The notes beneath the pieces are model-generated. The model was not told where the DNA came from. It searched no databases and saw only the letters and a list, made by a program, of their open reading frames with translations. 64,000 bases of DNA from Hericium rajendrae (Eukaryota > Basidiomycota > Agaricomycetes > Russulales > Hericiaceae), in the NCBI GenBank assembly GCA_033439255.1, contig CM065888.1, forward strand, positions 992,001-1,056,000, in the 5' to 3' direction. The translations under genes were made by a program, and so were the position numbers. Below are positions 5,123 to 60,290 of the stretch, in pieces (the stretch's first letter is position 1; each line of letters starts with the position of its first letter).

Positions 5123-8263
<3,141 letters not shown>

Positions 8264-17039: not shown

Positions 17040-18963
17040 CTTCTTTCCTGGAAAGGCACTCATCTCTCCGCATTGCCGTCAAAAGAACTGTCACTCTTCT
17101 TCCGAGCTGGCATCGTCGTCGTCCTCTTGATCGGACTCATCGTCTTCGTCTTCAGAATCATCTGAATCCATGTCAGACTCATCCTCGACATCGTCAACGT
17201 TAGGCACAGCGACCAGCCGCGCTGCAGGAATATCGTCGGTACGTCAACCACAAATCCAGATCTTAGCCGTACATCTTACACTCACCAAGTTTCTCCCGTT
17301 CCTTCTTCAACCACTGGTGCAGACGCCTGTGCATCACCTCCGTCAAACATCCTAAGCACAACCACCGCAGAGACTTGTGGAGACACAGGCTCTCATCTTC
17401 CAGCCCTAGGACGGCATAGATGACGAATCTCAACGGGCATTGCTTGTCCTCCAACAGCTTGACGAAAGTTACGAAGTCGTCCTGCTCGTCCGGCGAGAGA
17501 TAAGGCTTCAGAAACTTGGTCGCCATCTCGGTCGGTGTGCCCCATAAGTCCCCAGTCCAAGCATAAGCTAGTCGAAGTCAATCCAGATACTTTGTGATGA
17601 CGAGAACGGTGAACTGACTAGCTGGGGACCATATATCCTTGCCCTTCTCATTACAGTGGTGGCCTGATGTACCATGACAGTCAGTCCCAACACACTGGAC
17701 AGATGGAGGTGCAAGACGACGTACAAGCTATCTCCGACATGCGATCGCCATTGAGAATGAGCGCGTCCACATACATGTCGTCACGTATATTGACAGGGAT
17801 AGCACCTCGGAGGAACCCCCGGTTCTCGATGAACTGATTATCATATCCCTCCTCAAACTCGTCCTGCACATTGCAATCCAACATCGTATCAAAGATCGCC
17901 TGCAGCTCGGACGAAATCAGCTCTCGTGCGATACTGCGTCCTAAGCAGCGCACGCGTCAGTGTCACCCGGTTCAACGCATGAAGACGAGGGCCAACGTAC
18001 CAGTCTCCTTCGACATCCCCTTTTCCTCCGCCCAATAGCATATCGACTTCTGCAGGAAGTGGTGCACGACGTCGATCTCGGCGCGCTCGCGCGCAGGAAA
18101 GGCATCGAGAAACTCCTGTCGCTCTCGCACGAGCGTCTTCATGCCGCGGTCGCGCCGTCGGAGAAACGCGCGATTCCACCGCTTCCCGAACAAGGCCTGA
18201 TAGAGCCAGAGACGCAGGAGCGCGCGGTGCACCACAAATGTCTGCGCCTCGGTGAGCTTGCCGCCCGCGTACCTGCATGACTGGAGTTAGTTGCGCGGGG
18301 GCCGCGCAGGGACTTTCGAGCCTTACCTCTCTGCGAAGATGTCGGTGGCATCTTTGACGACCAGAGCCGGAAGAACGGTGTTTCTCGTGGAACCCAGCTC
18401 AAAAAACGACAGGTCCGCGGCGACGGTCTCGTCAGGGAGGAGCACACGGTGAGACTTGTAGTACGCGAGACGGGCGTGCTGCGGCCAGTTCTCGCCCGCC
18501 GTGTTCTGGGCAATGGCCGTCATAATCGAGTCTTGGTATTCGTCGAATGTCTCCTTCATTTTGCGGGTAGAGAACATTGCGGAGACAGTATCTAGAAGGC
18601 TTGGGACGTGGATGAGGATGCGGTAGAGGATGTCGGTGGGAAGGCGGTCAAGCATGGTGTAAAAGGCTGCGATGAAGGGAAGTCTGAAGTCACAGTGGAT
18701 AGTAGACGGAGGTTAGAAGCGATGGGGAAAAGGACAAGTTGCGAAGACAAAAAGAAGCCCCTGTAGGATTATAACGACGTGCATTTTCCCGAAAAAGTTC
18801 GCTGCTTCAGAAGAGAAGGAACAGGGTCCGACGGTGGAGGGTATTGATCTGACAGTGGACGAGTGATGAAAGACGCGTTCGACATCACCTGACCGCGTTG
18901 CATCACAGACCTGAAACAGTAACTTATTAATGGAGCGATATCACGCAGAGGGACTTTGTGCAA
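17040..18963 (-). repeat. Inverted segmental duplication, arm 1
   Basis: This block and 23905-25885 (opposite strand) are near-identical over the whole subfamily-A F-box gene, including introns. They also match over about 250 bases of 5' flank; shared on the coding strand are GTCTGTGATGC, ACGCGGTCA, TCGAACGCGTCTTTCA and CACTGTCAGATCA. About 5 kb separates the arms. Boundaries are approximate. Confidence 0.75.
17091..18655 (-). CDS. F-box-like protein with C-terminal paired C-x2-C motifs (subfamily A, copy 1)
   Basis: ATG at 18655: MLDRLPTDILYRILIHVPSL is an F-box-like start, so the protein may be an SCF substrate adaptor. Following exons encode the helical blocks YAGGKLTEAQTFVVHRALLR, FLDAFPARERAEIDVVHHFL and LISSELQAIFDTMLDCNVQD. 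A short exon gives ACHHCNEKGKDIW, then TGDLWGTPTEMATKFLKPYL and RWLCLGCLTEVMHRRLHQWL. The two C-x2-C pairs about 75 residues apart suggest a zinc ribbon. The last exon is an acidic tail (DDSEDEDDESDQEDDDDAS) ending at 17091-17093. Nearly every exon is matched by the copy at 24221-25885, but here the tail ends earlier because of a frame change. Zinc binding and SCF role are inferences. Confidence 0.8.
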
Positions 18964-19139
18964 CTAGCTGAGTGGAGGGTCAGATCTATTCAGCAAAAGC
19001 AGGTGGATGACAAGCCAACTGCACGCAACATGCGAAATGAGTGGAGAAGACAGATGCTCATGACATCGTGCTGGGAGCGGCTCGGATAACTCGGCTTCTC
19101 GTTCGTGCGCCTGAGCACGCCCTTGAACAGCACCACTCA

Positions 19140-20310
19140 GTCGAAACGGCGGATCCTGCAGCGCGCGCGCAAGTGCTTCTCGCACGCGCCGCCACTTAAG
19201 AACTGGTGTGTCGTGTCCGCCGGGTCTTCCCAGACGCCATGCGCGAGACGCCAGTCTGGCTGAGGGTCAGCGTGGTGAGCGTGCGTCGGTGCAACCAGAG
19301 ACGTACTGGAGTTCGACCAGAGCAGTGCGCCGCTGCAGTTGCAGCAGTAGCCTGAGCAGCGGAGCGTTGGCGAACGGGAATAGATAGACAGGAGCACGAG
19401 CGTACATTTAGCTTCGAGATACAGTCGTCGCCGAGAATCTCCTCGATAGAGCAGCGCACCGGACATGAATTAATCGTTCGGCTTCCACTCGTCGACGTGC
19501 GCGTCTCCGCACGCGTCCACTTCCTAGCATGCGGTCGCCACGAAAGCATCCTCATTCTCGGCCAGGCCACGTATCTCAAACTTGTCACGTACCTCCAGCC
19601 TATCATTCATCCTGATCATGCCGCATTCATCATCCAGCTCTAGCACCATCATGCTGCGCGCAAGCCCTGCACCAACATCAGTCCTCCCGGCCTTTCCGCA
19701 AAACCGCAGCACATACCGTCCGCCTCCTCCCGCGCGCACGCAAGCCCAGCATCGTACCTCCTGCAACAAAAAAACGATTCACAACACGACCTCGCGCCGT
19801 TCAGCCTCCAGAAACGTATCGAGAAACACGCGCCTTTCGTTGGGACAGCCATAGGCGGCACAGCGCACGCGCCAGCACCGTGCGCTGCCCGCACGCGTGA
19901 ATCTGCCCGCCCATCCCGCGGCATCAGCATCAGGCTTTCCATCGGCGCGACCAAAATCCGTATTCACCGCTGCGCAAATCGCTCGACCGCCCATTCCATG
20001 ACGTGCACGCATTTCCATACGGTCTCGATGTCCAGCTGCGCGCTGTGCGCCGTGTTCTTGCTCAGCAGCTCCCCCGCGGTGCGGAAGCGCACGAGGCGCG
20101 CGTGCGCGCGGCGACCGCGGTCAGGATCGCGATTGGGTGCGCGAGGAATGCGGCGCGCACGTGCAGGGAGGCGCGGTACGCGCTGAAGAGCGTGCGCAGT
20201 CGGCGGGGATGCGGCCGAGGACGTCGAGCGGCAGACGGCTCGGGCTGGGCGGCCGGGGTGGCCAGCACGCGACGTCGCGGCGGTGGAAGCAGAGGACGAG
20301 AGGCATGACG
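19140..20310 (-). pseudogene. Decayed member of the F-box / C-x2-C family
   Basis: Reading the minus strand from 20310, pieces of the family appear in order but in different frames. SRLPLDVLGRIPAD (F-box start) is followed after a frame change by LRTLFSAYRASLHVRAAFLA, then VLARALCRLWLSQ and RVFLDTFLEAERREVVL (compare FLDAFPARERAEIDVV of the intact genes). Near 19350 comes GYCCNCSGALLW (compare CHHCNEKGKDIW) and near 19250 HGVWEDPADTTHQFLS (compare GDLWGTPTEMATKFL). Frame changes and missing blocks make a functional product unlikely, though a very diverged gene with unusual introns cannot be excluded. Base composition is more GC-rich than in the intact paralogues. Confidence 0.5.
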
Positions 20311-21146
20311 GCCTGGAAATGGTACGAGATTAGCAGGGATGCGGTGAGCTCAAAGTTACGAGAGGATGATGGGCGAGGAGAGGATCAGAAGCAGAAAATG
20401 GGCGTGTTAATGCTACAAGCCGTCATTATAAGTCCATTCAAAGTGGTCGTATGGGTCATGAAGGTCGCCTGTAGAGAAAGCAAACATGTTGTTGATTACC
20501 GTTGTGGCCTAACGGGCCCCCAGCCGCCTGCGTCCAGCGACATGAGCGCGCTGCGATTGATAGAAAGAACGTCGTTCTCATATATATATAGCTTCGTCGA
20601 CAACCGGGGTCCAGCACTAGCATTATTTGGTTGTATTTGATCGCCAAATTGGAAAACATATCATCGCCCAACAGATGCCAGCTTGGACCAAGTATCCCAT
20701 ACAAAAGCGGTGTCGATCCAAGGATGTACAGTCTGATTCTGTTTCCGGTTTCCAAGCCGTCTTCCAGCCTGAGAGGCGAACAATCTTGTCCGTTGCTGCC
20801 GCTGATCGACCACTACCCTATTCAGTCCCTGATTTCGACAAGCACCGCGGTTCGTGCGTTCTTAATACTTGTCTGCTTTATATTGCGGTTTGCATGTCCT
20901 CGCAGTCAGACAGGCCATCCAACGTGGCATCTATGCAGTCGGATAGGTCATACATCTTCGTGGCGAGAGCGGCAGGCTCCAACACAAGATCAGGTACGTC
21001 TCAGCCGCATCGAACTTTGAATGAAACTGCTACTGAACTGCTTTTGTACTATCACCGCATCACACACAACGAAAACTGCATAGTCGATACACGAACAACT
21101 ACTTGCCAAGAGAGCTCCCATCGGAAACCGACTCCATCCGTCCTCA
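20311..21146. other. Intergenic, no supported gene
   Basis: Sequence between the decayed F-box copy and the 3' end of the secreted-protein gene. A TATATATATA run lies near 20580. Overlapping frames up to about 200 codons run through 20627-21229 on the plus strand but look like non-coding sequence (mixed composition, no motif). Confidence 0.4.
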
Positions 21147-22265
21147 TTAATCTTCCATCCCCGAGAGCACGCCCAACACGCTCAGCACCCCGAGCAGCAC
21201 GCCTGGGACACCGCCAGCACCCAGCCTGAGCACCGTTCTCAGCACGCGCGCCGCCCGCGCGTCCAGCGGCCTGCCGAGCAACTCGAGCACGACTCGCACG
21301 AGCACCTCGATTCTACGCATTGCATCATCAGCCTTCCGCGGCGGGGCGCCACCAAAAAATATAGACGCACTCGTCCGGAGCGACGCGACACGGCGCCAGC
21401 TCCGCATCCGCATGGGCGAATGCTTCCTCTATGCGCCTGAATGCAGTTTCTATGCGCTCGACCGCGTCGTCCGTGCCATTGAACGCACCCCGCATGGCCT
21501 CCGACACGTCCTCGAGGACACGCGGTGCGCCGCCCGCCACGTCTTCCACAGCCTACGCCGCCCACTCGCCGTCAGTCTCGCGGCAACGGAAACGGCACCG
21601 AAATCGCGCACCTCGCGCATGTCCTGCAATGCGCTCGCCACGTCCCTCCACGCAGCCTCTGCGCCCCCGCGGATGTCGTCCAGGATCTTACCGCCCGGTT
21701 TGTCGCCCTTGGATTTGTTCTGCACTATCCCGCGCAGGATCGCGTCGAGCTGAACCTTGGTGGTGGCATTCCCCGCCTGTCTGATGAGTGCGTGCGCGAG
21801 AACTGACAGCGACAGGGTGCCCGCGTCGCGCGGGGCATCTGCAGCTAGGTCCATCGTGAGTCCTCAATAGACCTGAAAAAGAGTCGCACCGTGAACGCCT
21901 TCATGCTGTCCGGCGTCAGTCCTCCCCGGCACCACCTCTGCGGCATCGGCAAACGGGCTTTCCAAAGCATGGGCCGAGGCCGTTTGGATCTTCTCATCTG
22001 CACCTTCGGGAGGGAGGGAAGCAAAATCTTCGAGGAGGGTACCGAGGCTCGGGGTGAGCACATACGTGCTTTGCAGGAGGCCGTCTTTGGCCAGGACGAC
22101 TGCTTCATCTTTTGCGGGTACAATGATGTCAGTCGCAATAGCCAAATCTCCGATCGCACGCATATACGCAGCCTTACCAATATCGTTGGCACCTGGGAGT
22201 GAAATTGCGAGGATGCAAGGGAGAGCGAAGAGGCCGAGGCCGACGACGGATAGGAAGGAACGCAT
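21147..22265 (-). CDS. Putative secreted helical protein
   Basis: ATG at 22265: MRSFLSVVGLGLFALPCILA is a clear signal peptide. Exon 1 continues through LPGANDIGKAAYMRAIGDLA to about 21890. A 45-nt intron (GTGCGA...CCTAG) restores the frame to ADAPRDAGTLSLSVLAHALI and VQLDAILRGIVQNKSKGDK. Two further frame joins near 21590-21550 and 21380-21330 connect to EDVSEAMRGAFNGTDDAVER and to MRRIEVLVRVVLELLGRPLD, ending VLSGMED at 21147. The product, roughly 300 residues, is predicted to be mostly amphipathic helix without cysteine pattern or catalytic motif. No family recognised. The first exon and signal peptide are solid; the 3' splice choices are tentative. Confidence 0.6.
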
Positions 22266-22347
22266 TGTGCGATTAAACAAATGAACAGCGTGCAAGTGGG
22301 TGGAGGGGAGATGGGGGCATGGTCGGGGGACGGGGAGACAAACAGGT

Positions 22348-22354
22348 TATATAT
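22348..22354 (-). promoter_or_regulatory. TATA-like element upstream of the secreted-protein gene
   Basis: TATATA on the minus strand about 85 bases upstream of the ATG at 22265, at a plausible distance for a core promoter. Position only; no experimental support. Confidence 0.35.
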
Positions 22355-22546
22355 CAAAGGACTGGCAAGAAGACGTCCACCCATCTAAATCTGGCAGGTC
22401 ACTTGTCGTTTTCGGCCTTGTCGACCATCTTCAGGATAAGTTGGAAAGAAGTCGCCCTGCGGATCCATGTTCCTCGTCTTTTCCCCGCTGATCTCTTCGT
22501 TAGGCAGTCATCCTCGACTCACCAACACCGTAATATTCTATCCGAC

Positions 22547-23820
22547 ATGTATAACGAACTCCCGCTTGACGTCCTCGACCGTATCCTCACGCATACACCC
22601 GACTTCTGGATTATGAGAGCTGCCTTCTCCGTATCAAAGCTCACGTACAGTGCATTCTCAGCACATCCCCGGTTCATCTTCAAGGCAGTCCTTCAGAATC
22701 AATATCCAGCCGCGTGGCCCTCGGTTGCTTGCCTGCTTCACTACAAGGTCACTGGCGGGATTGTCGAAGAATCGCAAGCCGGGGACATCCTGCTGGATAA
22801 GACCGAAATAGCGCACTATCGTGCCTACAACTGCGACGTGATAGAGTTCATTGACAGGTTTGAAACGAGGTCAGAATGTGTAGCGCTGATCTTGTATAGC
22901 AGCTCATGACTTCGACCGCATACATGCAGGTATACCGTTCGGCGCACGTTGACCGACGAGCAATTCAACCGCGTCTATCGCGCGCTTTATCGTCTCTGGC
23001 TCCATCAAGCCCAATTCAGAGCCGACTGGAGCTGCTGGATGAGGACGTTGTCGGTGCAGAGGATGCATGGCTCACGCACGTCATACCTTCTCCGGACAAC
23101 CCGCCGCCGCCGCTCCCCACGCTCGGATCAGTCTCGCTGGTCACTGGATGAGCGCACTTCCTCGCAGGACTGCTGCACGATGAGGTGGTAGAGCTTCTAG
23201 TCGCCTTTCACTTCCTCCGGAAGGAGATCGTGCAGTGGCTTGGCTGCGGCGCCCACCATATCGTGCAGTGCAACATGACTGACGAAAGTACGGCAGTGTT
23301 GGTAGGGCCCGTTTATCCAGCATCTGCTTGACTAACTGCGACCACGGTCAGGCGGACTTTGCACAGAAATCGGCTGGTAGCTTTGGCATGGTACAGCTTT
23401 CCCCCTTCTTGATGTGCTGCGACTGACCAGCGGTCATTTCGATCAGATGCGCAGGATGTTGCAGGATACTGGGGCTCGGCGTTCGAATTTGCGAAAACGT
23501 TTTTGTCGCCGGGTACGTGGGACGATGAGAATATCCGCGGCCCTTTCATCGAAGAAGCTGCTTATATGCTACCGGTGCATGCAGACTTTGCTGCGCCGCC
23601 ACGTTACGTCATGCTGGCTCGAGGAGAGGGCCAACTTGGATTGGTATGTGTCAATTGGTTGTCTTGGATAGAGTCACCCTCTTATACTTACACTTTTCTG
23701 ACCCGTGTCTAGAATGCAGAATTGCTCAGAAGAGCAGCAAATGAGACCGACAAGAGGAATAAACCATATGCCCCTGCACCAAGCGTAGATTTCCAAACGG
23801 CTTCCGGCACGATGTCATGA
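22547..23820 (+). pseudogene. Broken F-box / C-x2-C family copy (subfamily B, copy 1)
   Basis: Exon 1 is intact: ATG at 22547, MYNELPLDVLDRILTHTPDF (F-box), to about 22870, then a normal intron and YTVRRTLTDEQFNRVYRALY. Compared with the intact paralogue at 26577-28161, the frame then shifts after WSCWMRTL, and a TGA stands where the intact gene has CGA (before AHFLAGLLHDEVVELLVAFH). The whole exon corresponding to MDGVVRELVAHELPDILW is deleted, as is part of the last large exon (the stretch between PFIE and LLICDRC). Degraded matches continue to AELLRRAANETDK near 23750. A truncated F-box-only product could still be made from exon 1. Confidence 0.75.
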
Positions 23821-23904
23821 GCATCTGTCTTCTCCACTCATCCTGCATGTTGCGTGCAGTCGGCTACTCATAAGTCTACTTTCACTGAGTGGATTTCAAA
23901 GTTG

Positions 23905-25885
23905 ACCCTCCATGCAACTACTTGCACAAAGTTTCTATGCATAATAACGATATGCAAAAGCCTCGCTCAATTAGTGCTGCAGTGTTTCAAGTCTGTGATG
24001 CGACGCGGTCATGTGATATCGAACGCGTCTTTCACGTCTTTCATCACTCGTTCACTGTCAGATCAGTACCCTCACTGTCGGATTTTGTTCTTGGTCTTCG
24101 ACCGGCTTGCCTTTATAACCCTGCCGCGGCTTCACTTGTCTTTGCAGCTTGTCCTTTTCCCACTGCCTCGAAGCTTCGTCTATTATCCACACTCCAGACC
24201 TCATCGCAGCCTTTGATGCCATGCTCGACCGCCTTCCCACCGACATCCTCTATCGCATCTTCATCCACGTCCCAAACCTACTAGATATTCTTTCCGCAAT
24301 TTTCTCTACCCGCCAAATGAAGGAGACGTTCGATGAATACCAGGACTCGATCATGACGGCCATTGCTCAGAACACGACGGGCGAGAACTGGCCGCAGCAT
24401 GCCCGTCTTGCGTACTACAAGTCCCGGGGCGTGCTCCTCCCCGACGAGACTGCCGCCACAACCTTCTTGTTCGACCTCGGTGACGTGAGAGACATCCTCT
24501 TTCCGATCTTGGTCGTCAAAGACGTCACCGATCTCTTCGCGGTGAGGTAAGGCCAGAAAGCCCCTGCTCGGCCCCCGCGCAACTAACTCTATTCACGCAG
24601 GTACGCGGGCGGAAAGTTGACTGAGGCGCAGGCATTCGTGGTGCGCCGTGCGCTCCTGCGTCTCTGGCTCTATCAGGCCTTGTTCGGGAAGCGGTGGAAT
24701 CGCGCATTTCTCCGACGGCGCGACCGCGGCACGAAGACCCTCGTGCGCGAGCGCCAGCGGTTCCTCGATGCCTTTCCTGCGCGCGAGCGCGCCGAGATCG
24801 ACGTCGTGCACCACTTCCTGCAGAAGTCGATATGCTACTGGGCGATGGACAGGGGGATGTCGAAGGAGACTGGTACGTTACGCCGTCGTCTTCGTGCGTT
24901 GAGGGCCGGGTGACACTGATGCGTGCGCTGCTCCAGGACGCAGTATCGCGCGAGAGATGATTTCGTCCGAGCTGCAGGGAATTTTTGACATGATGTTGGA
25001 TTGCAATGTGCAGGACGAGTTTGAGGAGGGGTATGACAATGAGGTCATCGAGCACATAGGGTTCGTCCGAGGCGCGACCCCCATCTTCGTGCGCGACGAC
25101 GCCTACGTGGATGTGCTCATTCTCAATGGCGATCGCCTATCGGAGATAGCTTGTATGTCGTCTTGCACCTTCACCGGTCGAGTGTGCTCAGACTCACTAT
25201 CACGGTGTACCAGGCCACCACTGTAACGAAAAGGGCAAGGAAATATGGTCCCCAGCTAGTCAGTTCGCCGTTTCCGTCATTATTAAGTTTCCGGATTGAC
25301 CTCCGATTAGCTTACGCTTGGACCGATGGCTTATGGGGAACACCGACTGAGATGGCGACCAAATTTCTAATGCCCTACCTCTCGCCAGACGAACAGGATG
25401 ACTTCGTGATCTTCGTGAAACTATTGGAGGACCAGCAGCACCCTTTCAAATTCATCATCTACGCCATTCTAAGGCTGGAAGACGAGAGCCTGTGTAACCA
25501 CAAGACTCTGCGGTGGTTGTGTGTGGGATGTTTGACGGAGGTGATGCATAGGCGCCTGCACCAGTGGTTCAAGGAGGAACGGGAGAATATCGGTGGGTAT
25601 GGCCGCAGCCTCAGATCTGGGCTTATGGTTGACGTACCGGTAATATTCCTGCAGCCCGGGCGGTCGCTGCGTCAGACGCTGATGACGTTGAGGATGAGTC
25701 TGACTTGGACTCGAATGATTCTGAAGCCGAAGACGACGATTCTGTTGGTGAAGACGATGAATACGGTCAGGGGGACGATGATGATGATGATAGCGACGGT
25801 TCTTTTGACGGCAATGCGGAGAGGTGAGTGCTTTACCGTGAGGGATGCTGCATCTCTGATTATTTCTTGCAGTGGGGAGCTGTGA
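23905..25885 (+). repeat. Inverted segmental duplication, arm 2
   Basis: Partner of 17040-18963 on the opposite strand. It covers the subfamily-A gene and about 250-300 bases of its 5' flank (GTCTGTGATGC at about 23991, TCGAACGCGTCTTTCA at about 24020). Shared introns as well as exons indicate DNA-level duplication rather than retroposition. Confidence 0.75.
24221..25885 (+). CDS. F-box-like protein with C-terminal paired C-x2-C motifs (subfamily A, copy 2)
   Basis: ATG at 24221, MLDRLPTDILYRIFIHVPNL. Six introns restore one frame: RYAGGKLTEAQAFVVRRALL, FLDAFPARERAEIDVVHHFL, GRSIAREMISSELQGIFDMM, ACHHCNEKGKEIW, TDGLWGTPTEMATKFLMPYL, LRWLCVGCLTEVMHRRLHQW, then an acidic tail (DDVEDESDLDSNDSEAEDDD through DDDDDDSDGSFDGNAES) closing with GEL and the stop at 25883-25885. 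All splice sites are GT-AG. The organisation is exon-for-exon the same as 17091-18655, so each model supports the other. Role as an SCF adaptor is inferred from the F-box-like N-terminus only; the target is unknown. Confidence 0.82.
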
Positions 25886-26576
25886 ACCCTTTTCGCTCTG
25901 ACCAGAATACTGTCTAGATATCATAGAGTGAGCTCTGACCTGTGTACCGTGACTTCAACTCGTGTCTCGACCAAGTCGCGACGACATGCTGGCAGTGGCA
26001 AGGCAGAAACGATGCGTCTGTCACGCTCTGTCACGACGCGTCCGCGTTATTTGGCCTTGTTGTCCGAGGCACGTTGGCATCCTCTGTTCCTCACGTTCAA
26101 GCTTCGAACTTTACTCCCGAGTGGAGATGTTCATTATTCTGAAGTCAACGGTGTTTCTGCCTCAGTTTGTGCCACGGGAATTACCTAAATTACGTCGCTT
26201 CAGCTCGGCTCAGCCTCCTACTGCTCATAAAGTCATTGCTATGCTAACCAATCCATGACCGCAGCTTTCGCCCAACCAAATTGGAAGTCGTTCAGGAAGG
26301 AAGTCCCTAAACAAATAACTTTATCTCTTTTTAAAGCCTTTCGGCAACCCATTCCTTGTATTCTTTGTGTCTGTCAGATTCTGCTCCCACAGGTATGCTT
26401 CTTTCCTTTTGTGAGACAAAGAACGTAGACGCCGCGGTTGCGCCGCGGTATAGTATGTAAGTACTTGGGTTACCTGCACCGACACACCTCGTCTACACCA
26501 TCTCTTTCCCTCGCTGATATATTTTCCCGAACAGCCGTCCTCTATCTACCACCGTCATAACATCCCTCAATCCGAC
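25886..26576. other. Intergenic between two F-box family genes
   Basis: No gene supported. It is the 5' flank of the subfamily-B gene at 26577. Frames here are short and in mixed composition. Confidence 0.45.
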
Positions 26577-28161
26577 ATGCATGCCGAACTCTCTCTTGAC
26601 GTCGTCGACCATATCCTCACGTATATAACCGACTTCTGGACTCTGGGAGCTGTCTTCGCCGTATCAAAGCACATATACAGTGCATTCGCGGCCCGTCCGC
26701 AGTCTATCTTCAAGGCAGTTCTTCAGAATCAACACCCAGTGACGTGGCCCTCGGTTGCTTGCCTGCTTCACTTTAAGGCTACTGGCAAGGTCGTCGAAGA
26801 AGCGAAAGCCAGGGACATCCCTCTGGACAGGACCGCGATTGCGTATTATCGTATCTACAACGGCGATGTGATCGAGTTTGTTCAAAAGTTTCAGATGAGG
26901 TAAGTAAGTTATTATATTGCTGGTCTTGCATAGTAGCTCATGACCCCGGCCGCATATATGCAGGTATACTGTCCGACACATGCTGACCGACGAACAGTTC
27001 AACCGCGTATATCGCGCGCTGTATCGCCTCTGGCTTTATCAAGCCCGATTTGGAGCCGAATGGAGTGGGTGGATGAAGACGCTGGAGGCTGCAAAAAGTT
27101 CAACTCCGGCCCACATGCCCATGCCAGAATCGCTGGCCCTTGGACGAGCTCTATTCCTCGTAGGACTGCCGAAACATGAAATGATAGATATTCTAGTCGT
27201 CTTCCACTTTCTTCAGCAGGAAATCTTGCAGTGGCTTTGCACACATCACATAGCCACGTTCAACGACATCGACGAAAGTACGTGACACTGCTGTCGTGGA
27301 GATAAATCTATCTTGGTATTTACTCATTTTTTGGTGCAGTGGATGGGGTAGTACGAGAGTTGGTCGCCCATGAACTGCCCGACATCTTGTGGACCATGAT
27401 GTGGGAACACGATCTAAACCCCGTCTATTATGACGAGAATTTTGCCGAAGAAACCCAGGAAACCGAGGGAATCGATGTCAACCAGTTCCTGTTGGCAAGC
27501 CTGCCTTATAACCAGGAAGGACTCAGCTACCCCGAGGCATTGATTTTAGGGCGGGATCACATGTGTTATTCGCAGTGTCAGTATTTATATACTTTCATGT
27601 AGTCAGTGGCTGTTTGACTGACTGTGACCACGATCAGGCGGGCTTTGCAAAGGAGCCGGCCGACATCTTTGGTATTGTACGGCGTCGCCTTATCATCATT
27701 CCATACAACTGATCAATCATCGTCTCGATCAGACGGGCTGGACGTGGCGGGATACTGGGGCTCGCCGCTCGAATTCGCTGAAGCATTCTTATCAGCGGAT
27801 CCATGGGACGATGAAGACGTCCTTGTTCCATTCATCGAAGCCTTCAATAGTCGTTCGTACTATTACCCTGAATTGATAGACGACGTTCTCAAGCGCGAAG
27901 GCATCAACCAAGGAAGGGAGTCACTACAGAAGTTGCTTATATGCGACAGATGTATGGAGACTCTGCTACGCCGTCATGTCACATCATGCTGGCTTGAACA
28001 GAAAGCCTACTGGGATCGGTACGTGGCAATCGACCATATCGAATGAAATCACCCTCTTATGAAGCATTTTTGCACTCGCATATCTCGAATTCAGGCTTGA
28101 ACAAAAGAGAAGAGAGCCAGACGAAGATGATATCTGTACCACTCCCACTCCGGTGTCTTGA
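26577..28161 (+). CDS. F-box-like protein with C-terminal paired C-x2-C motifs (subfamily B, intact copy)
   Basis: ATG at 26577, MHAELSLDVVDHILTYITDF (F-box-like). After an intron: RYTVRHMLTDEQFNRVYRAL, MIDILVVFHFLQQEILQWLC. Next exon: MDGVVRELVAHELPDILWTM to SYPEALILGRDHMCYSQ. Splicing then gives CGLCKGAGRHLW, GLDVAGYWGSPLEFAEAFLS, and LLICDRCMETLLRRHVTSCW. The final exon RLEQKRREPDEDD ends at 28159-28161. CGLC and CDRC are equivalent to CHHC and CLGC of subfamily A, and GYWGSPLEFAEAFL to DLWGTPTEMATKFL, so A and B share one fold despite low identity. There is no long acidic tail. No frameshift or internal stop found. Confidence 0.78.
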
Positions 28162-29791: not shown

Positions 29792-29882
29792 TCGGTTATG
29801 GTTTAACGGCTAACATTACCGCCTCTCATAATTCCTGTCTGATTCGGGCGCGGTAGCTCGGGGTTCGACTCCCCAGTAGATC
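29792..29882 (+). tRNA. tRNA-Glu(CUC)-like sequence with intron, acceptor end degenerate (pseudo-tRNA?)
   Basis: TCGGTTA-TG-GTTTAACGGCTAAC resembles the acceptor strand and D arm of fungal tRNA-Glu. TACCGC and GCGGTA form the anticodon stem around CTCTCA, giving anticodon CTC with an apparent intron of about 20 nt after it. The T arm is GGGG-TTCGACT-CCCC. The 3' strand (AGTAGATC) does not pair with TCGGTTA, so the acceptor stem is broken. A second, 5'-truncated copy sits at 30022 because of the tandem duplication. Confidence 0.45.
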
Positions 29883-30243
29883 AACAAAGGCCTTCTTTTT
29901 CTTTCTTCTTTGCTGGAAATCTAGGTAAATGTTAAGTATGCTACGATTCACAAGCATGCATCGGCAGCTTTGAAGTTTCGAGTCGCTCAACAATTGACTC
30001 GCCCTGTTCCGCATCAGAATCGTTTAACGGCTAACATTACCGCCTCTCATAATTCCTGTCTGATTCGGGCGCGGTAGCTCGGGGTTCGACTCCCCAGTAG
30101 ATCAACAAAGGCCTTCTTTTTCTTTCTTCTTTGCTGGAAATCTAGGTAAATGTTAAGTATGCTACGATTCACAAGCATGCATCGGCAGCTTTGAAGTTTC
30201 GAGTCGCTCAACAATTGACTCGCCCTGTTCCGCATCAGAATCG
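29801..30243. repeat. Perfect 221-bp direct tandem duplication
   Basis: Two head-to-tail copies, about 29801-30021 and 30022-30243, look identical base for base. The unit starts at GTTTAACGGC inside the tRNA-Glu-like D arm and ends at CCGCATCAGAATC. It includes a CTTTTT/TTTCTTTC stretch after the tRNA-like T arm that could act as a pol III terminator. Confidence 0.9.
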
Positions 30244-51700: not shown

Positions 51701-53884
51701 GGACGGTATTGCGAGAGATGGGCAGTTGGTGGCGACGTGTGGTGGTCGGCTTCAAGGGGGTAGGATGGCGGTGACTCTGCCGCTGTGACAGCGGAGCGCT
51801 CGTATCATGTGATATCGGCGCATCAAGCGCGCGTCGGGAGTGCGTCGGGCTCGTCGTCGTTCTTGTCGTCGACGACTCACGACCATTTTCTGTTCATAGT
51901 AGCGACAGTCACCACGATGCCCAGTCTTCTTTCTACACTTTATACAGGATGAATGGACTAGATCCCGCTCATGTTCAAGGTAAGCGACGTATCAAGTCAT
52001 GTTATCATTGATGCGTTTTATGCACTGTAGCGACAAATCTCCTTCGTCTAGCGTCTGTTCTTTCCATCTTCCAAATCATGGGTATTCATGCCTCAGACTA
52101 TGTGTCATTGGCGACATATACCTTGCCGATCAGTTTTATATCTAATTAACGCAGGTACTCGTTGAGAAATATTGAAGGGACGATGACATTGAACATGTCG
52201 CATTCTCCTGAGCAACGGGACGAGGACTAGGCGCTGCGAATAAGGCATCACAGAAGCATACAGTCAAAAAAGCTGGAGGAAAGAGATAGTTGTACGGCTC
52301 TTCCTCTGAAGATCAGACGTTGGGAAGCTCATGGGAAGCCCATCCACGTCGGGAAGTAGCGCCAAGCTGGTACTGGTGAGAAAAGGTAGGCAAACGAAGC
52401 AGCTGTCGACCAATCGACTCTGCTGGAGACCTCACCTGCATTTTTGAATCCATACAGAATGCTACACCTGCTTCACGAATACACGACCTTGACGTACATT
52501 TGTTACTGCCGAGAAAAGGGCTGTACTTGACTGCACGCGCATGTCTAGTCGGGTGCGGGTTCTCTGCCCATTCAATAAATGCACGTCGAAAGGGCTGCAG
52601 GAGACGCAGCCACCGAGACGAAGGGTACGTCGCCTTTGACTCTGTTATCCGACACATGAGGGAAAGCGAGAGCAATGGCGAGCGCATTTGACCATCAGCC
52701 AAGGAAGCCAAAACCATCGAGCACCCACAGCTTAGCAATGACGAACGAGAGCAATTGACCACTCTATTGGCCCGTCATCATACTTTCAGAATCAGTTGCG
52801 GGGCTCGCCACGGTGATGCATCGGGGCTGCTGGAAACCTGTTCTGAAGAGGCCGACAGGGCCAACAGGGCCGACAAACTCTGGCCCGGGTACCTCTGCGT
52901 GGACCCATCGAGGAGAAGCCTTGACGTGTTCCGCGCACTTTGTTTGGAGCAGACACTCTCGGATTCCATACGTTCTCGAGACTGAAACATGACGCGGGAC
53001 TTGCACTTACGGCGGTGGCGACACAACCGAAGTGCAGCGAAGATGGAAGCAGCTGGCGTATCTCCGGTCGATTTCGTCCTGTCGTATGGCAGGTCGAATC
53101 ACGAACCTCCTCAGCGCACGAAACGGTCTGGAATGCAGTTTGGAAGATGCATGCGCCTTGAGATCGATGCAGCACGGCGGAGGCGACCAAGAGGATACGG
53201 GCGTCATTTGTCATGGACACTACAAAATACGAGCCAGAGATAATTGAACGTCCAGAATTCAGTACGAAGACCGATCCTCGGCGCTGGGAAACCCGTCATG
53301 CGTCACAAAGCGCACCAATGTTATTTTGGGCGCGCAGGAGGACCCAAGCGAGGCAAAGACCGCGTACTGTAATCGAGGCGAAGTCTGTGAGCATCTGAAA
53401 CTCAGCACGAGCGTCCAGACCTGTGTCGAACTCTTGTCAGAGAAATTGCAAAGTCTCGCCGCGGGGAGGCGCATCCTGTGAAGTAACCACATCAACGTTT
53501 GGCTTCAGACAATGCAAGGGGTAAAATCGCAGCTAACTGACTCTGCACCAGATACAATGCGAGTGCACTGGAGGTTGGCATGCAGACGGAGAGAAGTAGG
53601 AGTGGACACTTGAACGGTAGGAGGCAGGGGAGTATGAAAACAAAAGGAATGGATTGCTGGAGGTACAGTACGTGATGCAGCTCCGAGAGCTCAGTAATCT
53701 ACATAAAGGAAGGGATTGCTGGAGGTACAGTATGTGACGCAGCTCTCAGAGCTCAATAATCTACAAGTCTATGCAACGCATCGTCGCGACGCGGCTGCGG
53801 AAGCTTACAAACGCGACAGTCAATTACTTCGAGCAACATCATAGCAAAGAAGCCAGTCAATGCACACTGAGTCTATCAGCGCGT
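51701..53884. other. Intergenic with duplicated segment upstream of the FRE block
   Basis: No gene supported. From about 52721 the sequence is a diverged copy of 56396 onward (shared: GAGCAATTGACCA, GTTGCGGGGCTCGC, GAGGCCGACAGGGCCAACAG). The two copies do not keep the same open frame, so this part is judged non-coding. A 62-bp unit is present twice at about 53653-53776. Confidence 0.55.
53653..53776. repeat. 62-bp direct repeat, two copies
   Basis: GATTGCTGGAGGTACAGTA begins at about 53652 and again 62 bases later, each followed by TGCAGCTC/CGCAGCTC and AATCTACA. The corresponding place in unit 2 (about 57550) has a single copy. Confidence 0.75.
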
Positions 53885-56046
53885 CTACCATCCAAACACC
53901 CTGTATACAAATCCCATGATTAGTTTCCTCAAACCACGAACGAAGCGAAAATAAAATACGCACTCTTCATACGTCTCAACGCCCCCACAAGCATTCCAAC
54001 TTCCCCAATCCATACCGCCTACAGCCTGCGAGGATGCATCAGCCATTTCCACCGGCCCACACGTCGCGATCACGACACCGCACGGCTTGCCGCCGGCATC
54101 AACGGTCCTCCCACTCTTGTACGCCGCCCCCACATCATCGGCCGTTGCGTTCAGCACGGCAGGGAGATTAGGCCGGCCAGGTTGGAGCATGATCCCGGCG
54201 GGAAGCGCGGGGACCGAGGGCGAGGTCGGCGCGCGGGTGTAGTGCACCGTCATGCGGAGCTGCAGCGTCGGCGTTCTGGCGGCCGGGTGTAGGAGAAGGG
54301 AGATCAACGTCGGGAGCAGATCGCTGATTGCGGCTGGTGTGACGGAGTCAAAATTAGGGCGCAAAGGGAGGGGAGAAGTAGGCTTACAAGGCTGCGAGAC
54401 GGACCAGATTACCTCGATGGTGCAGAGCCTGCTCTGCCCTGCGACGTGACGCTGAAGGAGGTCCTCGAGAACCGAGAGCACGAAGGTGATCCCGCTGCCG
54501 CCAGCAACGAGCACCGCACCGGAGTAGGATGCCAGCACGGTGTATCCCGGACCGCCTGGTATAATGCCCCTCCGTCAAGCTATATGCTAGACAAGATTAA
54601 GGGGAAAGACTGACCGTATGGTCCCTCGACGATCACCCTTGCCCTCCGTCCCGGATTCGCTTCCTCTTCAAAGGAACTTGAATCTTTCTCTGACAAGTTC
54701 CCCCACTTCGAATCCCCCTTCGCAACGCCATACAACCAGCTTGTCCACGGGCCCCCTCTCTTGACAACGAGCTCCAGACCCGCACCGCTTCCCGCGGCAG
54801 TCGCGATCGTGAACGGCTTCATCGTGCCCGTGGTCAGGCGCAGCGCCGTCTCCAGCCACGCGAACATGCCGGACGACGGGGGCAAAACGGCGAGGCGGAC
54901 GTGCTGCCCCGCGCGCCAGCCCGTGCTGATGCCAGGCACAGTGACCAGCGTGCTGCCGACGGACGAAAGCTGCGTGAGGGTTGCGGTCTGGGTGCGCGTC
55001 TTGAGCAGGCGCAGGAGGCGGTCGAAGGCGATCAGGGCGACTGCGGCGAAGACGTAGTTGTGGGTCAAGGGGAAGTGATAGTATGCCTGGCGGATGATGT
55101 CGTGATGAGCACCTGAAGCAGATTAAAAAGGGGAGGTACATACCGCGACCAGAAGGCCGGTGAAGCCTGCGACGTGGCTTGTCCAGAAGAGAGTGTACGA
55201 TCTCTCGCGGACGTACCGAGTGGAAAAGAGCGCGAGGATGTCGAGCGATACGAGGCCTGTGAGACCCCACCTGACGAAGGGCTTTGCAAATGACGCAGCC
55301 ACGGTACCGGCACTTGACCATTCATAAACTAGCAGCGCAATTATTCAGTAAGCGTGAAAAAGCTGAAGCGAACGGGCGAGCTTGAGGAGACGTACTGTAT
55401 CCCATGAAATGGATATTGATTGCGAGGACAACGATACGACCAGCGAATCGGTGGATGAAATTCAACTGTACAAGCGTTCATGAATTCCTGCCGTTGCGTG
55501 GCACACGAGGAACTAATAGATAATACTTACCTTCTCATACGGAATGCCGCTCAGCAGACTTAGCACATTGTTCTTGTTCGCAAGAGCGACCACAATAGGG
55601 ACCTGCGAGATCGCGACGAAGCCCTCGCGCGTGCTGTCCGTGAACGGGTCAGACTTGAACGTTCCAGCATACAACAGGATGCCAAAGTAGGCCCCTAGGA
55701 CACAGAGCCGGCCGAACGAGAATCCCGGCGCGACGCGGTAGTGGAGGACGCAGCCCACGAACGGGTGGATGTACGTCGACCAGCGCCGCGCACGGATGGG
55801 CAGCTTCGGCGTCCTAACGTCGGCGGAGTCTGGGGCGGCTTTGCTCTGGGACAGGCCGCGCGAGCGTAGCATCCACCCGCTCCCCGGGACGTCGATAAAG
55901 CGGGAAAGGGCGCGAGGGAGGGTCGTCAGGACAAAGAGACCGAAGAGCGCGAGGAGCAAGGCGTCGATGTGAAAGACAAAGTCGACATTGTTGAACTTTG
56001 GAGGCGGGGGTGCGGCCGGCGCTGAGCTTGCAGAGGGCGCGGACAT
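53885..56046 (-). CDS. Ferric-chelate reductase (FRE family), copy 1
   Basis: Plasma-membrane flavocytochrome b reducing extracellular ferric (or cupric) chelates with NADPH for iron uptake. ATG at 56046. The N-terminus has an early helix (DALLLALFGLFVLTTLPRAL), then FGRLCVLGAYFGILLYAG and SQVPIVVALANKNNVLSLLS. Haem-binding His pairs stand in FIHRFAGRIVVLAINIHFMG and SHVAGFTGLLVAAYYH. The FAD-binding site reads MKPFTIATA, where the family normally has HPFT. NADPH motifs are VLVAGGSGITFVLSVLEDLL and CGPVEMAD. About eight introns; the final exon encodes only VFGW (stop 53885). Regulation by iron is expected from the family, but I saw no convincing GATA-type operator. Confidence 0.9.
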
Positions 56047-56395
56047 CTCTGTAGATAACCAGATCTAGAGCAGAGTGAAAGGTGATGATCTGAAATACGC
56101 ATCCTCGATATATACCAGCAGGCGATCTAACACGTGGAGAAGATGCAGGCCGCCGAGTCTGTTATCAAGCCGACAGCTGGACGGCACAACCGATGGTCGG
56201 AGACGCAGTATCGCGGATGTGGATCGATAAAACTTCATGCTGTAACAATGGTAACGCATTGTCTTTTGCAGCTCAAATAATCTAGACGAATCTAGATCGT
56301 TGTAGGGGGAAACGGCGCTCCAACTGCCAGATTACTGTTACAGCTTGTTACAGCTGCTGTGATGCGATCTTCGGGGCGGTCAGTTCTTCCTCCAT

Positions 56396-59300
56396 CGAGC
56401 ACCTCAGCAACGACGAACCAGAGCAATTGACCAATCTGATGACCGCTTCGCAATACTCTCAATACCGGTTGCGGGGCTCGCTACGGAGATGCGTCCGCCG
56501 GAGCCGCCCAAAACCTGTTCTGAGGAGGCCGACAGGGCCAACAGAGCAGATAAACTCTCGCCTGGGTACATCTGAGCGGACCTGTAGAGAAGAAGCCGCA
56601 CAGGCGTTCTCGAGACTGGAACATGACGCAGCATCTGCACCAGATAGCCGCTCGAAGTGCAGCTCCACACCTCAGGCCGGCATATCTCTGGTCGAAGTTG
56701 TCCCGCCGTGCCAGCAGGTTAAACTTGTTAAACTACCGACGTTTCTGAGACAAAAAAGGGACTGAAAGGCGCTTTGGAAGACGCGGCCGCCTTGGGATCG
56801 ATGCAGCACAGCGTTGGTGACCAAAAGGAGCTAAAAGAAAGGTGTGTTTTCATCGTGGATGCTGCGGCCAAGAAACCCAAGATCATCGAGTTCCAAGAAT
56901 CCAGTACGATGACCGATCCTCGGGGTTGGCAAACCTGTCCACGTCAAAGCCGCAACAACATTATCGCAGAAGGGCCAATAGCGAGACGAAGATGCGTAAC
57001 CAAGGCAAACCCCAAGAGGATCCAGACCTCAGGCCTCAGCGCTCAGCAGGAGCACCCCGGCCCATGTTGAACCCGTGTCAGAGAAGTCGCGAGGGCTCGC
57101 TGCGGTGCAAAGGCCGCCGCCAAAGCTGCTATGCCGCCGCCCCAGATACGTTTGGCGGGTGTGCTTGGAATCGGCGCGCGCAGCAATGTAATTTAGGATA
57201 AACGAAGATTATGAGCCGGGGGGCTGAGACATCTTTTTATGCGGTGTACTATCTCCCCGAAATGGGGTGACTGCTTTGTACTATTCACATCCTTCCTACC
57301 ACCAGGACGCCTCGAGCATGACGACGCACTACTTGTCTTGTGCCCGAACAGGAATTGTCATCGTATCTGTTTCTCTCCTTCAGTGCATGATCAAATAGCG
57401 TCTTTTCATTGGTTTTCTAATCTTCGCCTATAGGAGGCTTTTTTCTAAGGATGCGAATTGATGCATAAGGGCGCTCGATATCTAACTAGCGGTAAAAGTT
57501 CAAGTCCTAGGTTCTAATTGTAATCTCTGGGTATGAAAAGTAAAGGAAGGGATTGCTGGAGGTATGTATGTAGTGCAGCTCATCTGAGCTCAATAATCTA
57601 CAAGTCTAAGCCACTATGCAACGCGTCATTGCGACGCAGCTGCCAAATCTTACAGATACAGACACGACAGTCAAGTCCTTCCGGCGAGAAAGCACAGCAA
57701 AGCAGGGATCAGTCTATCAGCGCGTCTACCATCCGAACACCCTGTATGCAAATCCCATGATTAGTCTCCTCAAATCACCAACGAAGCCAAAATAAAATAC
57801 GCACTCCTCATATGTCTCGACGCCCCCGCACGCCTTCCACCGTCTCCAATCCATATTGCCCACAGCCTGCACGGATGCATCGGCCATCTCCACCGGCCCA
57901 CACGTCGCGAGCACGACACCGCACGGCCGGCCAAGCGCATCAACGGTCCTCCCGCTCGCGTATGCCGCGCCCACAGCATCGGCCGCCGCGTTCAGTACGG
58001 CGGGGAGATTTGGCCGGCCGGGCGCGAGCGTGATCTCGGCGGGGAGCGTTGGGAACGAGGGCGAGGTGGGGGCACGGGTGTAGTGCACGGTGGTGCGGAG
58101 CTGCAGGGTCGGCGTCCTTGCGGCCGGGTGTTGGAGGAGAGCGGCTAAGGTCGGGAGGAGATCGGTGATTGCGGCTGGCGAGATGGAGTCAAAATTAGGG
58201 CACAGAGGGAGGGGGGAGGCGGGCTTACAGGGCTGCGAGACGGACCAGATTACCTCGATGGTGCAGAGCCTGCTCTGCCCCGCGGCGTGACGCTGCAGCA
58301 AGTCCTCGAGAACCGACAGCACAAATGTGATACCGCTTCCACCAGCAATGAGCACTGCACCCGAGTAGGACGCAAGCACGGTGTATCCCGGTCCGCCTGG
58401 TATAATGCCCCTCCGTCAAGCTATATGCAAGACAAGATTAAGGGGAAAGACTGACCATACGGCCCCTCAACGAATACTCTTGCCTTCCGTCCTGGGTTAG
58501 CTTCCTCTGCGGATGGACCCACTTCTTTCTCCGCCACATTCCCCCGCTTTCCGCTCCCCTTCGCAACGCCATACAACCAGCTTGTCCACGCGCCCCCCTT
58601 CTTCACAACAAGCTCCAGCCCAGCACCGCTTCCCGCGGCAGTCGCGACCGTGAATGGCTTCATCGTGCCCGTGGCGAGGCGCAGGGCCGTCTCCAGCCAC
58701 GCCAGCACGCCGGACGATGGGGGGACGACGGCGAGGCGGACGTGCTGCCCCGCGCGCCAGCCCGCGCTGATACCGGGCACGGTGATCTGCGTGCTGCCGA
58801 CAGACGAAAGCGGTGTCAGGGTTGCGGTCTGTGCGCGTGTTTTGAGCAGACGCAGGACGCGATCGAAGGCGATGAGCGCGACTGCCGCGAAGACGTAGTT
58901 GTGAGTCAAGGGGATGTGGTAGTAAGCCTGAGCGAACGATCATCATGATGAGCATCTAATGCAGATTTAAAAAAAGGAGGTACGTACGGCGATCAGAAGG
59001 CCGGTGAAGCCTGCGATGTGGCTTGTCCAGAAGAGGGTGTACCACCTCTCGCGGACGTAGCGGGTTGAAAAAAGCGCGAGGATGTCGAGCGATACGAGGC
59101 CGACGAGACCCCACCTGATGAATGGGTGTGATAGTGACTCAGCCACGATGCCCTCGATTGACCAGCGATAGACTAGTAAGGCATTTTTTCAGCAAGCGCG
59201 AAGTAGCTCAAACCAAAATGGGCGGGCCTATGAAGACGTACTGAACCCCATGAAATGGATATTGATTGCAAGGACAACGATGCGACCAGCGAATCGATGT

Positions 59301-60290
59301 ATGAAATTCAACTATGCAAGCGTTTGTGAATATTTGCTGTAAGCGGCGCACGAAAAACTGACCTTTTCATACGGAATGCCGCTCAAGAGACTCAGCACAT
59401 TGTTCTTGTTCGCAAGAGCGACAACAATAGGGACCTGTGAGATCGCGATGAATCCCTCCCGCGTGTTGTTCGTAAACAGGTCAGATTTGAACGTCCCCGC
59501 GTACAGGAGAATACCAAAGTAGACCCCTAGGACACAGAGTCTGCCGAGCGAAAACCCCGGCGCCACGCGGTAGTGTAGGGCATAGCCTACGAATGGATGG
59601 ATATACGTCGACCAGCGCGGCGCACGGATGGGCAGCTTCGCTGTTCTGGCATCGGCGGCGACTTTGCTCTTGCACGGACCGCCTGAGTGTAGCATCCACC
59701 CGCTCCCCAGAGAGGAGACATCGAAGAAGCGGGCAAGGGCGCGAGGAAGGCTCGTCAGGACATAGAGACCGAACAGCGCGAGGAGGAGGACGTCGATGTG
59801 GAAGACAAAGTCGACGGTGTCGAACATTGCTGGGGCGGGCTGAGATGCGGCCGACGCTGAGCTTGAGGCAGAGCTAGGCCCCGTAGCAGAGGGTGCGGAC
59901 ATCCCTGTATAAATAACCAGAGATCGGAGTGGAGGGTGCTAACCTGAAATGCGCGTTCTTGATATATACCAGAAGGCGGTCTTACACGTGGAGAAGACGC
60001 AAGCCGAGTCTACATCAAGCCGACAGCTGGATGACACCACCGATGGGTCGAAGAAGCGGCGTCGCGGACGTGGATCCAATGGGATCATCCAAACCCGTCT
60101 ATCAGGCAGGCCATTACCAATACGCTGACAATGAGCGCATGACTGCTGGAGATAACGCAAAGAGTACAGCATGAAGGATATCATATCATACCGTCATGAA
60201 CTTGCAATGGTGACGCATTGAGTTAATGACCGAAGGAAAGGAGCAACTTCCGCGGGCGACTATTACAACCTGTGGTGCGGCGGTCAGTAC
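56396..60290. repeat. Tandem segmental duplication, unit 2 (ferric reductase block)
   Basis: Second unit of the block described at 52721. It is slightly longer, with about 80-100 extra bases in the FRE2 upstream region near 60085-60180. Right boundary approximate. Confidence 0.75.
57726..59902 (-). CDS. Ferric-chelate reductase (FRE family), copy 2
   Basis: Paralogue of the gene at 53885-56046 with the same exon-intron plan. ATG at 59902; its N-terminus has an insertion (ATGPSSASSSASAASQPAPA) compared with copy 1. Conserved parts: SQVPIVVALANKNNVLSLLS, NFIHRFAGRIVVLAINIHFM, HNYVFAAVALIAFDRVLRLL, LIAGGSGITFVLSVLEDLLQ and CGPVEMADASVQAVGNMDW, ending VFGW at 57726. The same Lys replaces His in MKPFTVATA. 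Both copies look functional: no stop or frameshift seen. Differences cluster in the N-terminus and in the loop after the FAD domain (SGKRGNVAEKEVGPSAEE here versus SKWGNLSEKDSSSFEEE), a sign of divergence after duplication. Confidence 0.9.

Follow-up and report, generated by a model that had tools for sequence, protein, structure and literature searches.

F-box and F-box-like proteins (PF00646 and PF12937) have their F-box-related helices at the N-terminus, with a separate C-terminal part after them, and in several animal proteins the F-box is joined to a zinc-binding piece of a known fold, as in FBXO5/Emi1, FBXO11 (UBR box), FBXO40 (TRAF-type) and KDM2 (CXXC). Here we describe a gene family of related plan from Hericium rajendrae (assembly GCA_033439255.1; 46.8 Mb, 19 contigs), found in a 64,000-nucleotide stretch of contig CM065888.1 (C11:992001-1056000, hereafter the window). 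Its members combine an F-box-like N-terminus, a helical middle and a C-terminal module with two C-x2-C pairs, and the family appears to be a modest addition to a known class of proteins rather than a novel immune system.

The family resembles the animal proteins in joining an F-box to a putative zinc-binding piece, and differs from them in offering one possible four-cysteine site for which no sequence relation was found in the PDB. The co-occurrence of the UBR box with an F-box is described in the available part of PMC4506424. A further likeness, local duplication and decay, is shared with the expanded F-box adaptors of nematodes, as far as the accessible sections of that study go (PMC8665587).

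Gene models were built manually and by scripted spliced alignment, introns being taken as GT-AG. The window contains five family loci, as the preliminary description of this DNA had reported, three of them intact (A1, A2 and B1) and two broken (Table 1). Genome-wide six-frame searches revealed more copies on contig C11 and one on contig C5. Outside the window, intact C11 models lie at 630-651 kb, namely C1 (629783+), C2 (643165-), C3 (647861+) and C4 (649917+). The C5 gene (C5:3114587+) is a distant relative, with 19-25% identity to the other members; a blended C-terminal query matches it at E=3.8e-5, and its model was partly read by eye, with one exon boundary uncertain. In total, at least 11 copies were recognised (8 intact models and 3 broken copies), the number being a lower bound because only the best candidates were scored. 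Among these candidates a wide spread through the genome was rejected, only the C11 copies and the one on C5 being found; a match on contig C1 at E=1.2 was attributed to chance.

The C-terminal module is common to the whole family. It runs from C-x2-C-x3/4-G-x3-W through a WG turn (replaced by YG in the C5 relative) and a helical stretch to C-x2-C-[LM], which is followed by a helix with R, H and K. The second and third cysteines are separated by 71-82 residues, as counted by hand on the alignment. The C5 relative keeps the same order, with an F-box-like start, CARC-x4-G-x3-W, CTDC and a basic helix. All four cysteines are invariant in the 8 intact models, which share 19-44% identity when the two close pairs are set apart. 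They account for four of the 24 invariant columns among 445, and every other column has a cysteine in at most 4 of the 8 proteins. When the cysteines of each protein were placed at random, at most 5 of 8 fell in one column (5,000 trials). A regular expression for the second pair, derived from the family itself, matched four places in the six frames of the window (17358 on the minus strand; 23567, 25520 and 27942 on the plus strand), against a mean of 0.0 in 60 block shuffles. That for the first pair was uninformative on unspliced DNA (one unrelated match, 0.7 expected), since an intron splits the first cysteine codon. Chance cysteine pairs were therefore rejected, and the earlier proposal of a selected paired module common to subfamilies A and B holds, and extends to five further genes. 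The VVHHFLQ/VVFHFLQ core noted in the helical middle is also present; across the 8 models only its Phe is invariant.

Comparison of the C-terminal part with Pfam, NCBIfam and the PDB gave chance-like matches only (best Pfam E 0.028), in which the family differs from known F-box and F-box-like proteins. In collections of prokaryotes and viruses none of the 130 and none of the 68 pattern matches was confirmed, a result of little weight given that these collections are non-fungal. General-word searches of the open-licence literature returned no description of the four-cysteine module, which does not prove its absence there.

The natural reading of the pattern would be one four-cysteine site, which is probably zinc-binding. 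The preliminary description had spoken of a zinc ribbon; the order of the elements, with the knuckle first and the second pair at the putative start of a helix, would better fit a site like a treble clef. An inhibitor of the Emi1/FBXO5 type, whose zinc piece would act by binding and blocking a different ubiquitin ligase and would present no substrate, would share with the family the order of an F-box first and a zinc piece last. We regard it as the most improbable of the explanations considered, since four invariant cysteines provide one possible zinc site, in contrast to the two-zinc region of Emi1, and the PDB holds no sequence match.

The F-box-like character of the N-terminus, likewise proposed before, is borne out by profile comparison. 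The first 68 columns of the family alignment, compared by hhalign with 20 F-box segments from this genome (taken mostly from the top of its PF12937 matches), gave probabilities of 86-90%, with or without the C5 relative; with A1 and A2 alone the value was 74.9%, and the match spanned only 18 columns. Six further slices of the alignment reached no more than 1.6%, 80 column shuffles no more than 6.5%, and reversed profiles stayed below 1%. In addition, the C5 relative matches PF12937 at E=2.5e-4 (residues 3-32), just below the curated score, and PF00646 at E 0.035 (residues 4-38). The F-box-like segment takes up about the first 40 residues of B1 and corresponds to the opening 120 bases in A1 and A2. 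A PF12937 search of the genome (150 of 441 candidates scored) gave 151 matches, all of those listed being above the cut-off, and F-box receptors are therefore a large class in this genome.

Taken together, we give a probability of roughly 0.6 to the reading that these genes encode F-box proteins serving as substrate receptors of Skp1-cullin-F-box (SCF) ubiquitin ligases, with an undescribed zinc-stabilised C-terminal domain. The ubiquitin-ligase role is one that we infer. In such a receptor, Skp1 would be engaged by the 40 residues at the N-terminus. Substrates would be bound by the helical middle together with the C-terminal domain, a unit that a single structural zinc ion, carried by the two C-x2-C pairs, would hold in shape. 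The first pair, followed by G and W, and the second, heading the basic helix, would provide the treble-clef-like order. A more specific version is improbable: a new C-terminal fold in which a single treble-clef-like zinc site is split by the helical insert, the latter forming a degron pocket that would perhaps loosen with a change in zinc or redox state and so gate the disposal of targets.

Several observations weigh against the SCF receptor reading. No family member reaches Pfam's F-box cut-off, a Pfam scan of the 7 full-length C11 proteins gave no F-box match at E up to 10, and no family locus is among the listed PF12937 matches. When four N-terminal fragments (blended, B2, the copy at 974 kb and C3) were scanned alone, only C3 matched (0.03). 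The profile match covers residues 3-37, without the last part of the F-box. Searched against the PDB, the N-terminal profile retrieved no F-box protein, its only match being STU1 (E 0.28), which is not an F-box and was rejected, and no relative of the remaining part of the protein was found there. AlphaFold models of contiguous exon pieces were too poor for a fold search: exon 1 of B1 (4 sequences) gave helices at 7-16, 20-39 and 41-50 with a mean predicted local distance difference test score (pLDDT) of 47, and the last exon of A1 alone (3 sequences), which lacks the first cysteine pair encoded in another exon, gave a mean pLDDT of 56, with the second pair within a predicted helix at 64-92.

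The Pfam cut-off is not decisive here, because an ordinary F-box-like gene adjoining C1 (C11:631565-633037) misses it too (19.1 versus 24.3 bits, E 0.0011). This neighbour shares with the family an F-box-like N-terminus and was duplicated along with C1/C2; unlike the family, its open frame has no C-x2-C. C1 and C2 lie within a 3.7-kb inverted duplication (C11:629358-633336 and 639624-643685) which also carries the ordinary F-box-like gene.

The partial match below the cut-off, together with the basic helix after the second cysteine pair, would also suit a protein that depends on zinc to bind DNA or RNA, or for some other task, and whose N-terminal F-box is a vestige that does not bind Skp1. 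We consider this unlikely, as exon 1 is under purifying selection (ratio of nonsynonymous to synonymous divergence, dN/dS, 0.26-0.29) and A1 and A2 have acidic tails.

Selection was examined by the Nei-Gojobori method in A1/A2 and C1/C2, the only pairs close enough for this purpose, and is purifying in both. The dN/dS values were 0.254 for A1/A2 (dS 0.45) and 0.261 for C1/C2 (dS 0.58). Sliding windows of 45 codons with a step of 9, the same as in the nematode study (PMC8665587), exceeded 1 in 0 of 43 and 0 of 38 cases, with maxima of 0.44 and 0.51; windows of 40 codons gave maxima of 0.77 and 0.59. In both pairs the lowest 45-codon window was that of codons 280-324 (0.05 in A1/A2 and 0.09 in C1/C2). 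In C1/C2 it includes the first cysteine pair (codons 287 and 290) and the WG turn. In A1/A2 it begins just past that pair (codons 272 and 275) and takes in the WG turn as well as W283; the window before it, which starts at codon 271, has a value of 0.06. Exon 4, which carries most of the first cysteine pair, had a dN/dS of 0.09 in both pairs. A point on the other side is that the introns of A1 and A2 differ at 53 of 288 sites (Jukes-Cantor distance 0.21), which with a dN of 0.115 gives a ratio near 0.54. Since dN is about half of the intron divergence, the constraint is real yet weaker than dS implies.

These values bear on the suggestion, made with the preliminary description, that the family recognises self, non-self or foreign proteins. 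According to this explanation the F-box proteins would tag foreign or non-self proteins for a defence or self/non-self system, and their copies would diversify in an arms race. It agrees with the local birth and death of the genes and with an A/B chimera at 974 kb, and foreign proteins are proposed as targets of fast-evolving copies in the available part of the nematode F-box study (PMC8665587). However, not one of the 81 windows exceeded 1 and none of 45 codons exceeded 0.51, in contrast to the C-terminal peaks above 1.5 which that part of the study gives for 73 of 95 pairs in C. elegans (PMC8665587). The copies are few, no partner gene is common to the two C11 clusters, and neighbours of other function are tandemly duplicated as well. 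The suggestion is thus not upheld, and we judge such a receptor very unlikely.

The features of the family within the window are collected in Table 1.

Table 1. Family loci and their parts in the window (positions counted from its first nucleotide; minus-strand genes and exons are given 5' to 3')
Feature	Position	Strand	Remarks
A2, intact gene, 424 amino acids, 6 exons	18655..17091	-	Open from ATG to stop; acidic C-terminal tail
A2 exons	18655-18327, 18272-18001, 17940-17725, 17663-17619, 17567-17286, 17221-17091	-	
A2 first cysteine pair, CHHC	17653..17725	-	Split codon
A2 second cysteine pair, CLGC	17347..17358	-	Family regular expression
Heavily decayed relic, N-terminal and middle parts, CCNC-like stretch	about 20240-19100	-	Limits approximate
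B2, broken B-type copy	22547..23685	+	Exon 1 open; stop in exon 2; keeps CYRC at 23567
A1, intact gene, 437 amino acids, 6 exons	24221..25827	+	Open end to end; acidic tail
A1 exons	24221-24546, 24601-24872, 24937-25152, 25214-25258, 25311-25592, 25655-25827	+	
A1 first cysteine pair, CHHC	25152..25224	+	First codon split by phase-1 intron
A1 second cysteine pair, CVGC	25520..25531	+	Family regular expression
B1, intact gene, about 408 amino acids, 5 exons	26577..28047	+	Open end to end; splicing of the last few residues may differ
B1 exons	26577-26899, 26964-27277, 27340-27576, 27638-27676, 27733-28047	+	
B1 F-box-like segment, about first 40 residues	26577..26700	+	Profile comparison
B1 first cysteine pair, CGLC	27576..27648	+	Split codon
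B1 second cysteine pair, CDRC	27942..27953	+	Family regular expression

A1 and A2 form an inverted duplication of about 2.2 kb with 80% DNA identity (23781-25941 versus 19097-16946), and their proteins are 83% identical upstream of the acidic tail, which is encoded by an extra exon. B1 and B2 are direct copies. The four introns common to A and B have phases 2, 1, 1 and 1, a pattern also seen in the C models, and in A-, B- and C-type models alike the third intron (phase 1) falls directly behind the T of the codon for the first cysteine of the first C-x2-C and thereby splits it. The same split codon was read by eye in the C5 relative. A tree of the family supports only the pairs A1/A2 and C1/C2.

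In the case of B2, the aligner placed two frame breaks and three stops, one of them in exon 2; the other two may lie in introns that it missed. This copy has no counterpart of B1 exon 3, since in the repeat blocks positions 27240 to 27610 of B1 face only the step from 23244 to 23324. The relic on the minus strand gave a spliced-alignment score of 81, compared with at most 52 in 120 control windows, which confirms its existence; the coordinate of 19.1 kb given for it earlier marks only its 3' end. A third broken copy, outside the window (C11:973986-975494), has a B-type 5' part followed by stretches that resemble exon 4 and the acidic tail of the A type, with no match to A-type exon 5 between the two. 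The joining of B-type and A-type stretches in this chimera points to recombination between A and B genes.

The duplicated and broken copies, the chimera and the relic bear out the local birth and death that had been proposed. Copies of the family arise by local duplication and are lost by decay, almost all of them on a single contig. With 3 of the 11 recognised copies broken, the whole might be a decaying gene cluster without present function. This seems highly improbable, given that seven C11 models have uninterrupted reading frames and agree in their intron phases, and that dN/dS is about 0.25 over a dS of 0.45-0.58 in two pairs.

Comparison of the two C11 clusters (open frames of at least 80 amino acids; 230 and 520 frames) showed no non-family pair at E up to 1e-4, every matching pair across the clusters being a family member, and a many-gene system was rejected. 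The notion of an undescribed system is not upheld: only eight intact-looking genes were found among the candidates scored, and no partner gene recurs between clusters.

Other tandem or inverted duplicates occur nearby, among them ferric-reductase-like, GDSL-like and ordinary F-box-like genes, and since other gene types are duplicated too, duplication is a habit of the region, not a mark of the family. The ferric-reductase-like genes form a direct 2.5-kb duplication (81%; positions 53704-56225 and 57541-60076 of the window), with PF08030 above the cut-off in both. About four GDSL-like lipase/esterase genes stand in tandem at C11:964208-971087; the one fragment of them that was scanned fell below Pfam's cut-off. 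The window also contains a 225-bp tandem repeat (29798-30243) with copies 99.6% identical, and, on the minus strand (5961-7625), an open frame with amino-acid kinase, NAT and semialdehyde dehydrogenase domains, of the arginine-pathway fusion type. Elsewhere in the genome, the class II peroxidase extension (PF11895) has eight matches at seven separate places, two matches adjoining, which we read as a mark of a wood-decaying basidiomycete. A cluster of class II peroxidase genes (PF11895) occupies five places at C14:971330-991420.

To our knowledge, the substrates of mushroom F-box receptors are mostly unknown. Mushroom-forming fungi are rich in F-box genes: the available part of one report gives 210 annotated F-box genes in Flammulina, 80 of them developmentally expressed (PMC7567395), and the accessible sections of another place protein-ubiquitination genes, including those for F-box proteins, among the gene groups tied to complex multicellularity in mushroom-forming fungi (PMC8893723). 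Against this background, an invariant four-cysteine module without a significant Pfam match is a concrete handle: it makes the family searchable, and the zinc site that it predicts could be checked in one protein preparation.

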